A stretch of 64,000 nucleotides of DNA, from the NCBI GenBank assembly GCA_937888715.1, contig CALARU010000177.1, positions 1 through 64,000 of the forward strand, written 5' to 3'. The translations under genes were made by a program, and so were the position numbers. Position 1 is the stretch's first letter, and every line of letters starts with the position of its first letter. The notes beneath the pieces are model-generated. The model made no database searches. It was given only the letters and a program-made list of their open reading frames with translations, and was not told the origin of the DNA. This document shows, piece by piece, positions 46,054 through 51,456 of the stretch. Origin of the DNA: an uncultured Planctomycetaceae bacterium. Lineage in GTDB: Bacteria > Planctomycetota > Planctomycetia > Gemmatales > Gemmataceae.

Positions 46054-46859
46054 ATAAAAATAGCATTCACCGCAGACTTACATCAGCCAATCACCCCTTA
46101 TGGCAGATTGAATAACTGGTAAAAGAGATTTCAGAATTTGGGCCAGATGTTCTTATTCTGGGTGGAGATTTGGAAGAATCAGTTCAGGATTTCGAAAAAT
46201 GTCTGCGTCTCTTTCGAAAATCTTTTACCTGCCCTTTGCTTGTTTACCTTGGGAATCACGACTTATGGGTACGAAGATTTAGCGACAGTAAAAAATTATG
46301 GTTTGAAGAGTTACCTAAAATCACCAAGGATTCAGGATGCACTTGGCTTGAGGGTAGTTCTTATGTGCAAAATGGCATTGGGATTGCGGGTACCATTGGC
46401 TGGTACGATTATTCTGCAGTAGATTCTGGGATTACTCACTCTGAGTTGCATTTTGCCCAAGAAAAATTCAATTTCAATAGTGGCGCATTAATAGTTGATT
46501 GAGAATGGTCGGATCCTGAATTTGCGATGCGGGTTTCGGGCCCCTTCTTGGATCAATTAAACGCTTTGAATAATAATCCTGCGGTTCATAACATCATTGC
46601 TGCAACTCATTTCCCGATATTAGAAGAACAAATGCACCGGGATGTTCACAAATCAGGCTGGGCCTTTTCCAATGCCTACGCTGGAAACCTCACCTTGGGT
46701 AAGCAAGTTCTTAAAATAAAGAAGTTAAATCAAGTATTGAGCGGACATACCCATATTAGCAAAAGCGGCTCAACATAATGAAACACTATAAACTCCGCAT
46801 TTTGTCAAGTATTAGAAGCAGATTATCAAAAACCCGCCATGATAGGTCTTGCAATTTAA
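46054..46859 (+). pseudogene. decayed calcineurin-like metallophosphoesterase
   Basis: Conceptual translation across lesions gives a nearly complete metallophosphoesterase: 'KIAFTADLHQPITPYGRLNN', then 'DVLILGGDLEES', 'CPLLVYLGNHDLWVR', 'AATHFPILEEQ', 'LSGHTHISKSG' and a C-terminal 'ADYQKPAMIGLAI'. The DLH, GGDL, GNHD and GHTH blocks are the metal-binding motifs of the family. Lesions: ATA at 46054 where ATG is expected, a frameshift near 46117, an in-frame TGA at 46500-46502 and tandem stops TAA TGA at 46776-46781; the frame then runs on to 46859. It lies 3 bases past hisG. Confidence 0.85.
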
Positions 46860-49490: not shown

Positions 49491-49760
49491 CTACTTTGCA
49501 GCAGTCTTTTTGTTCATAATTTTGCTGAGTTGGGACTTCAATCTTGAAGCCTTATTAGCATGCATGGTTCGCTTTGCTCCAGCTTTATCAATCTTACTTG
49601 ATGCAAGATTGAACTGCTTTTGCAATTCTTCAGCCGAACCTTCAGATGCATTCCTTACATTTTTTACAAGCAAGGTAATGTCACGAAGAGCAGCACGGTT
49701 AAGTGCACGCCTTTTTTCGGACTTGCGCAAGTTCTTCTTGGCACTGCTCGTGTGAGGCAT
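49491..49760 (-). CDS. rpsT: 30S ribosomal protein S20
   Basis: 89 residues, highly basic, matching S20: 'MPHTSSAKKNLRKSEKRR' at the start, 'RAALRDITLLVKNV' and the C-terminal 'GAKRTMHANKASRLKSQLSKIMNKK'. S20 binds 16S rRNA early in 30S assembly. The ATG at 49760 is preferred over a codon 15 bases upstream because AGGAG precedes it and it gives the standard N terminus. It stands alone, with its own strong terminator. Confidence 0.97.
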   Translation of the reverse strand: MPHTSSAKKNLRKSEKRRALNRAALRDITLLVKNVRNASEGSAEELQKQFNLASSKIDKAGAKRTMHANKASRLKSQLSKIMNKKTAAK

Positions 49761-49857
49761 AGAAACTCCTGTCAATCGATTAGCGGGTCAAAAATATTCG
49801 TCAAGTAATTAGTTTAATAGCAACAATAGCAAGCGACAAGGGTCATGAACGCAATTC

Positions 49858-51456
49858 TTACCACTCTAGGGAGTGGACTTTTGTCCACGCCTTCATGTTT
49901 TCTTCGAGTAGCGGTTCCTTATTGGTTATAAAAACACTCAGCAAATCGTCCTCGGAAACCAGCGAATTAAGCCACTTCGATTTACCTTGTAAGTCTATTG
50001 GCAGATTAAACTTAGGGCCTCCTCGCTGAGACTCAACCAAGGATTTAATTTTTGATTCTTTTACTTCTAGCAAATGAGATAAATCAATTGAAATCGAAAT
50101 AAACCCTTTGATTTCCTCGGAGCGCACAGTTTCTTTTAAAACACTTAAAACATTTTTTACATACAGGGTTACTTCATCATCGGTCAGTGATTTTCCTGGA
50201 AAAATATTCTCGAGAAGATCGGGTAGGCCTTTGGGAACTACGATCAAGCGTGCCTTTTCCAACAAGAAACCCGCACCCAAATTAACTTTCATTTCTTCGT
50301 TTTGCCTTCGCTCGATTTCAATTTTCCTTATAAATGCCCGCTTTTGTATCCCCGCACTTATCCCCAAACGAACCAAGCTTGGCAACCTGGCACCAAATTT
50401 ATCTAAAATCCCTTTTCGCACACAGGCCTTAGCAAGCTTATCGAGACGCAGGGATATTTTATCCAAGACATTTCGATCCACCTTATTGGCTAAAGAATTA
50501 CCCTGAGGTTTGGCCACTTGGGAGAACGCCCAATTACGCGTGTTTTTAGCTAAATAAGCAAAAGTCGACCTTAGAGAAGGATCTACATCGCCCACCTGAT
50601 GCCAATGCATTTTAAGCATCTTGGGGCAAGCCTCAATCCAAGCGTCCAGAAAGGCCCGAGTAAGGTTCAATGATTTTTCTTTATTGATTTGTATTTCAGG
50701 TCGAAACAAAGGGCTATAATTTAATCCCCTGAACCAACCCGGGGCACTAGGAAAATTCAAATGCAGTACACCCAAAACCCCAGAAGTCTCTAAGCACACA
50801 TCCATAACGCTCAACGCATTTTTTAAAAGTTTTGTATCGATTCTAGGTTGCTCTAACGCTAAATATTCTGCACCTTCAAAATGAATTTGTTTTGATGCGA
50901 GATTTTTTATGTTTGAAATGAATTCTTTTGGACTCTGCAAAACCATATCGAGCCAATCTTCTTTAACCCACGAAGTCGCCAGAAGCCCATCCGGGAAGGT
51001 GATACCCTCCATCTGAATCCAGCCTTCTTGAATTCCCGCAGCGAGGTCGGGAGTTAGAACCGAATTCAGCATTTTATGGCGGTTGAATTCTTGAGGTGTT
51101 TTAACATTTTTGCTAGGAAACAATTCAGTCCCTAATTCTAAAGAACCAGAATCAAATTCAGCTTTATAGGCAAATTCAGGGTATTTCAGAGCAATATCGG
51201 GGTGCCCAAATTCTCGAACCGTTCGAGTCACTGCAAATATTATATCTTCCTGCTTTAATGTAGCACCAGGGTTTTCTGATGCCAGAAAATACGATGTTGC
51301 ATCTGCCAATTCTCTTGCAAGAAAAGGATCAGGCTTACCCAACATTACTCCCGTTTCATATAAGTCTTTGCAGATATGATCTTCTTGGAATGGCACTAAT
51401 CTGCCATCCTTTTTTATAATCCAAGCGGGCAAAGGTGGGGCATCTGGGTGCTTCAT
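49858..51456 (-). CDS. ATP-cone domain protein of unknown function
   Basis: 532 residues. The first 95 carry an ATP-cone: 'IIKKDGRLVPFQEDHICKDL', then 'EDIIFAVTRTVREFGHPDIA' and the 'YPEFAYKAEF' tail. This nucleotide-binding domain normally regulates ribonucleotide reductases or NrdR. 'LTPDLAAGIQEGWIQMEG' (about 135-152) is reminiscent of the residues after the ATP-cone in NrdD/NrdJ-type reductases, but I see no glycyl-radical (RxCGY-like) motif, B12-site or Cys-rich zinc motif in the C terminus. It may be a diverged, non-catalytic relative; that is inference. ATG at 51456, with a TTG three bases earlier; no clear ribosome-binding site. Confidence 0.6.
   Translation of the reverse strand: MKHPDAPPLPAWIIKKDGRLVPFQEDHICKDLYETGVMLGKPDPFLARELADATSYFLASENPGATLKQEDIIFAVTRTVREFGHPDIALKYPEFAYKAEFDSGSLELGTELFPSKNVKTPQEFNRHKMLNSVLTPDLAAGIQEGWIQMEGITFPDGLLATSWVKEDWLDMVLQSPKEFISNIKNLASKQIHFEGAEYLALEQPRIDTKLLKNALSVMDVCLETSGVLGVLHLNFPSAPGWFRGLNYSPLFRPEIQINKEKSLNLTRAFLDAWIEACPKMLKMHWHQVGDVDPSLRSTFAYLAKNTRNWAFSQVAKPQGNSLANKVDRNVLDKISLRLDKLAKACVRKGILDKFGARLPSLVRLGISAGIQKRAFIRKIEIERRQNEEMKVNLGAGFLLEKARLIVVPKGLPDLLENIFPGKSLTDDEVTLYVKNVLSVLKETVRSEEIKGFISISIDLSHLLEVKESKIKSLVESQRGGPKFNLPIDLQGKSKWLNSLVSEDDLLSVFITNKEPLLEENMKAWTKVHSLEW

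Follow-up and report, generated by a model that had tools for sequence, protein, structure and literature searches.

What is the role of an ATP-cone on a protein that shows no reductase active site? The question is raised by positions 49858-51456 of the window (the whole stretch of 64,000 nucleotides of planctomycete DNA analysed in this study), where the original prediction had placed such a protein without giving a strand. Analysis of these positions revealed an open frame of 532 amino acids on the minus strand, with an ATG at 51456 and a stop at 49858-49860; the plus strand across the same positions is full of stops. The gene, its parts and its downstream neighbour are as follows.

49858..51456, minus strand: NrdD-like pseudoenzyme gene with ATP-cone, 532 amino acids (open frame, dN/dS, homologues)
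51181..51420, minus strand: ATP-cone, residues 13-92 (PF03477 match weak here, clear in relatives)
49861..51120, minus strand: barrel resembling NrdD but lacking the glycyl-radical domain, residues 113-532 (fold and profile-profile matches)
50449..50526, minus strand: short Cys-free stretch at the position of the NrdD CCR finger loop, residues about 311-336 (hhalign, motif table)
50599..50604, minus strand: Trp285-His286 (conserved in all 30 Gemmatales homologues; the His is aligned to one that does not vary among planctomycete NrdDs)
49491..49760, minus strand: rpsT (ribosomal protein S20), directly downstream (arrangement shared by 7 of 37 loci)

The gene is present as a single copy in its own genome (4.56 Mb in 414 contigs, 99.57% complete). 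Homologues were found by profile in 38 of 59 near genomes, own genome counted, and all seven genomes of the window's genus carry it, with zero stops in the same-genus copies. Five comparisons with congeners gave dN/dS values of 0.07-0.10 over the 532 codons and 0.05-0.09 for the cone part alone, the most distant pair being near saturation in dS. Chance or artefact as the origin of the frame is ruled out by this conservation and dN/dS, and positions 49858-51456 hold a real gene under purifying selection in the window's genus. The genes around it vary among Gemmatales, and no conserved gene for ribonucleotide reductase (RNR) was found among them except nrdR in four genomes; of 37 loci examined, 7 have rpsT directly after the gene and in the same orientation (49491-51456, minus strand, in the window). 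A scan for promoters and terminators found nothing above shuffled sequences. Elsewhere in the window, two plus-strand frames at 46170-46502 and 46527-46778 lie in the same reading frame, and 46170-46778 corresponds to a single frame of 269 amino acids in the relatives L031 and L032; the gene there carries an in-frame stop that is either real or a sequencing error.

The predicted N-terminal ATP-cone was recovered, and its absence, which would have spoken against the prediction, was looked for and did not occur. Residues 13-92 match Pfam PF03477 with an E value of 0.002 and 19.0 bits, so that the window copy (19.0-21.0 bits) does not reach the curated cut-off of 25.8; a congener (G004) exceeds it with 26.3 bits, 24 of the 25 aligned family members match PF03477 (best 2.6e-16), and a profile search of the PDB aligned the N-terminus to NrdD cones. 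At the positions of K50, R51 and K62 of Streptomyces coelicolor NrdR, described as nucleotide-contacting residues in the accessible text of PMC9110341, the window cone has Lys, Lys and His. Comparison of the 30 Gemmatales rows showed Lys at the K50 position in 21, and at the R51 position Arg in 21 and Lys in 3 more; both positions are lost in one row (L033, genome G034). His at the outer-site Lys (K62) position is found in the window's genus.

Beyond the cone, the prediction had counted about 430 residues with a faint resemblance to the start of class II/III reductases, and had suggested derivation from a reductase. The extent was correct and the kinship with reductases stood; the resemblance proved much stronger than faint, nearly full length, and narrower in parentage, pointing to class III NrdD. 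An AlphaFold model of the window protein (pLDDT 80.3, pTM 0.84) retrieved NrdD structures as the top rows of a fold search (4con, Z 22.2 over 382 residues, rmsd 3.9), and Foldseek matched it to 8p2c with 1.4e-16. A relative, L065 (JAKBCS010000125.1), was modelled better (pLDDT 86.5, pTM 0.88) and aligned with 4con at Z 26.2. Reductases of class I and class II also appear in these lists, as would be expected within a single superfamily, mostly lower than NrdD: the best class I row has Z 19.4 with the window model and 23.8 with the L065 model, and NrdJ structures stand in both lists beneath the best NrdD rows. Fold prediction thus returned NrdD as the best match, and a structure unrelated to the reductase barrel, the outcome that would have contradicted the prediction, was not obtained.

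Profile-profile comparison by hhalign of the family with nine planctomycete NrdDs gave an E value of 2.6e-24, in a match that runs as far as position 734 of 815, short of the Zn/glycyl domain. When the cone was deleted on both sides, so as to exclude a match driven by the cone, the E value was 1.5e-14 with a probability of 98.3 over 405 columns; an unrelated MMPL protein used as control gave 0.14, and the NrdJ of the same genome, compared as a single sequence only, gave 0.43 with a probability of 0.1. A cone-free HMM searched against PDB sequences found no NrdD and five weak unrelated matches; the homology of the barrel therefore rests on profile-profile and fold comparison, and the planctomycete NrdDs are the bridge. 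Pfam found nothing in the window protein beyond the cone, PF13597 has zero matches in the whole genome, and the best NCBIfam match of the window protein is PRK07111 at E 0.11, with no TIGR02487 above its cut-off. Overall, there is strong support for reading the approximately 420 residues after the cone as a trimmed class III RNR (NrdD) joined to an N-terminal cone, and for descent of the protein from a reductase.

Analysis of the catalytic parts agreed with the prediction that neither a glycyl-radical nor a zinc-Cys motif is present. A motif scan of the window protein found neither the CCR motif of the finger loop nor RxxGY, and no CxxC pair; the last 120 residues contain no CxxC, that is, no zinc Cys pairs, and in the hhalign comparison the CCR finger loop of NrdD falls in gaps of the family. 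The four Cys residues (29, 221, 277 and 345) are all isolated, and the check for conserved Cys that had been proposed found no Cys column at or above 40% in the 30 Gemmatales homologues. With no finger-loop Cys, zinc Cys, radical Gly or conserved Cys, the protein cannot carry out the known mechanism of RNR chemistry. The window protein is almost certainly a dead NrdD enzyme.

A total of 97 loci were read by motif and 86 were kept for a tree, the other 11 being fragments, over-extended frames and near-copies. Among the 86, 15 carry both CCR and RxxGY and are of the active type, five carry CCR without RxxGY, and two full-length proteins that keep GGQT and Cys pairs lack CCR as well as RxxGY; of the rest, 34 are further CCR-free proteins from outside Gemmatales and 30 are Gemmatales proteins. 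Judged by where they lie, two motif matches in dead rows are accidental (CCR just after the cone in L037, and RTAGF in L103). The two full-length forms (L099:4018-6384 and L179:1541-3895, in G094 and G139) lie beside nrdR and keep GGQT and the Cys pairs; CCR and the radical Gly are lost (RIADY in L099), and on these motifs they would mark an earlier step in this loss of catalytic parts. Four NrdDs of one family, f37 (L106, L175, L177 and L178, in G135, G164, G200 and G087), have CCR and Cys pairs and no C-terminal RxxGY; they represent either a second route of inactivation or enzymes whose radical domain is supplied elsewhere.

Comparison across Planctomycetota revealed that the gene immediately following nrdR is in many cases a true nrdD or one of these dead forms. 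The NrdR Zn-ribbon was found in 149 of 157 genomes and the family profile in 96. The 101 loci compared (one row per frame, with second stretches and the window's own row excluded) were split by PF13597 into 24 with at least 300 bits, taken as a strong NrdD match, and 77 without; linkage was defined as an nrdR Zn-ribbon at most 3 kb upstream in the same orientation, and the actual distances to the cone match are 324-764 bases. By this measure 19 of the 24 strong-NrdD loci and 63 of the 77 others lie directly downstream of the nrdR Zn-ribbon. PF13597 scores are about 330-660 bits for the CCR-bearing NrdDs, 314 and 320 for the two full-length dead forms, and from 157 down to 20 for the shorter forms. 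Three genomes (G093, G110 and G202) hold both kinds, a true NrdD of about 710 amino acids elsewhere and a short dead form beside nrdR. In the tree of 86 rows, a branch with SH-aLRT 99 sets all 30 Gemmatales rows apart, and next to them stand three rows of the same class that are dead and linked to nrdR; the tree, from a quick search and rooted at the midpoint, does not resolve the number of losses of catalysis.

Within the order of the window, 44 Gemmatales genomes (families f1 and f2) were compared, and 34 carry the pseudoenzyme. A clear NrdR, with Zn-ribbon and cone, occurs in five (G018, G029, G038, G040 and G041), all of them carriers, and is adjacent to the pseudoenzyme in four; weak Zn-ribbon matches without a cone (G013, G016 and G043) were not scored as NrdR. 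By the Zn-ribbon search, the remaining 29 carriers, including all seven genomes of the window's genus, have the pseudoenzyme without NrdR. Neither protein was found in 10 of the 44 genomes, and the pseudoenzyme is therefore dispensable. Parsimony on NrdR presence over 28 rows requires at least four changes, in which losses and gains are not separable. Overall, it seems that an nrdD linked to nrdR became catalytically inactive, that selection maintained it, and that it then outlasted NrdR.

The window's own genome has no NrdR Zn-ribbon (PF22811 search) and no NrdD. The proposed search for true nrd genes located one detected RNR, a class II NrdJ (PRK07562, 1941.7 bits) with no detectable cone, and the sole ATP-cone detected in the genome is that of the window protein (E 0.0016). 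Two further observations concern reductases of other genomes. The Gemmatales genome G016, which keeps the pseudoenzyme, has an additional cone-bearing RNR of 878 amino acids (G016:C10:64893-67088). NrdJ frames of 1581-2857 amino acids, against the usual 1220 or so, were found at G017:C661, G025:C256, G037:C9, G036:C250 and G010:C53, and at that size they contain large in-frame insertions, probably inteins.

We consider it likely on balance that the window protein is a nucleotide-responsive (ATP/dATP) regulator of deoxynucleotide supply that has lost catalysis. This is the best reading because it accounts for a cone on a dead NrdD scaffold, for the history beside nrdR and for genomes with a cone-less reductase; the original suggestion of a nucleotide sensor likewise fits the retained cone, that history and the selection, although some relatives have lost cone residues. 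In NrdD and NrdR, ATP or dATP at the cone alters the oligomeric state and with it activity or DNA binding, according to the accessible portions of PMC11226230 and PMC9110341. By this mechanism, the nrdR-linked nrdD would first have lost catalysis, with selection retaining the dead form; its cone would bind ATP or dATP, binding would alter the packing of the dead barrel with itself or a partner, and the altered packing would shift deoxynucleotide supply. The most plausible contact would be the cone-less class II NrdJ in the window genome, or NrdR where present; NrdJ is the first guess for the target because NrdR is absent. A more specific form, that in Gemmatales the dead NrdD serves in trans as a stand-alone "activity switch" by which dATP and ATP control the cone-less class II reductase, is put forward tentatively, as a possibility with the odds against it. 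The weak points of the regulator reading are the His at the outer site in this genus, the cone Lys/Arg that G034 and other genomes have lost, the absence from 10 of 44 genomes and the want of an RNR gene as a conserved neighbour.

Among the alternatives, the dead NrdD may be a co-regulator complexed with NrdR, cone to cone, that tunes the transcription of RNR genes. Consistent with this, 63 of the 77 loci that lack a strong NrdD match are linked to nrdR, and the pseudoenzyme is present in five of five NrdR-bearing Gemmatales genomes. A co-regulator of NrdR is nevertheless doubtful, as the Zn-ribbon search found no NrdR in 29 of the 34 Gemmatales carriers; moreover, true NrdDs are equally nrdR-linked, and the linkage may reflect inheritance from nrdD and not selection for a complex. 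A crude scan for twin NrdR boxes found none upstream of the genome's nrdJ or of the pseudoenzyme gene, and candidates upstream of nrdR in 11 of 52 loci, with a weak shuffle control.

It is improbable that the barrel has been repurposed as a new enzyme for a non-radical reaction, perhaps on a nucleotide. Trp285, His286, Arg363, Leu250, Phe251, Leu361 and Phe397 are invariant in 30 of 30 Gemmatales rows, and Arg328 and Glu197 are among the barrel residues that are invariant or nearly so; set against this, there is no standout cluster of metal ligands or nucleophiles and no conserved Cys, and the conserved residues may be structural. That the gene is a once-useful nrdD on its way out, now functionless, is very improbable. 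Variation in length, the loss of cone residues in some rows, stops inside 3 of the 44 match rows listed (G032, G035 and G016) and absence from 10 of 44 genomes could be so explained, but the dN/dS values strongly disfavour it for the window's genus, as do the lack of stops in same-genus copies and the residues invariant across 30 rows. The idea that the protein still works as a reductase, with the radical domain provided by a second polypeptide, can be set aside: separate frames of about 130-155 amino acids matching the glycyl end of PF13597 occur in some genomes of the phylum, but the loss of the finger-loop Cys as well, with no conserved Cys, refutes it under the known mechanism, and the window genome has no PF13597 match.

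Comparison with known systems places the protein nearest to class III NrdD (8p23/8p2c of P. copri, 4con of T. maritima), with which ATP-cone and barrel are collinear almost throughout; unlike these enzymes it lacks the finger-loop Cys, the zinc Cys pairs and the radical Gly domain, its GGQT loop is trimmed, and it has one cone where planctomycete NrdDs appear from sequence to have two. With the repressor NrdR (Zn-ribbon and ATP-cone) it shares the cone, here a putative sensor, and nrdR is its neighbour in most of the phylum; in contrast to NrdR it has no Zn-ribbon, has a dead NrdD barrel and persists where NrdR is gone. As the accessible text of PMC5794259 describes it, Leeuwenhoekiella blandensis NrdB likewise carries an ATP-cone outside a cone-less catalytic subunit, but it is a functional radical-generating subunit, whereas the window protein is a dead catalytic one. 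RNR pseudoenzymes as such are already known from betaherpesviruses, where, on the accessible text of PMC5469499 and PMC11772975, inactive homologues of the large subunit have taken another job; they are viral, homologous to the cellular class I subunit and act on host immune signalling, whereas the window protein is class III, bacterial and cone-bearing. No dedicated family for a dead NrdD with a cone was found in Pfam, NCBIfam, PADLOC or PHROGs, no description of one was found in literature that includes few subscription journals, and the word "Planctomyc-" is absent from the accessible text of the RNR-phylogeny and NrdR papers checked. A defence protein was rejected (PADLOC assigned zero families to the window protein; of 24 relatives, one had a single match, at 0.012), as was a phage origin (no PHROGs match for the window protein; phrog_487, "NrdD-like", in 3 of 24 relatives).

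If the trans-acting form of the regulator reading is true, the dead NrdD would replace both the cone in cis and the repressor NrdR, and ATP-cone proteins would then comprise three kinds: RNR subunits, NrdR and this one. Such a conserved third carrier of the cone, an RNR minus catalysis, would show the transition from reductase to regulator, and the stages in between would survive, beside nrdR, in a single phylum. It makes testable how dNTPs are balanced in bacteria that lack NrdR and whose sole RNR is a class II enzyme without a cone.
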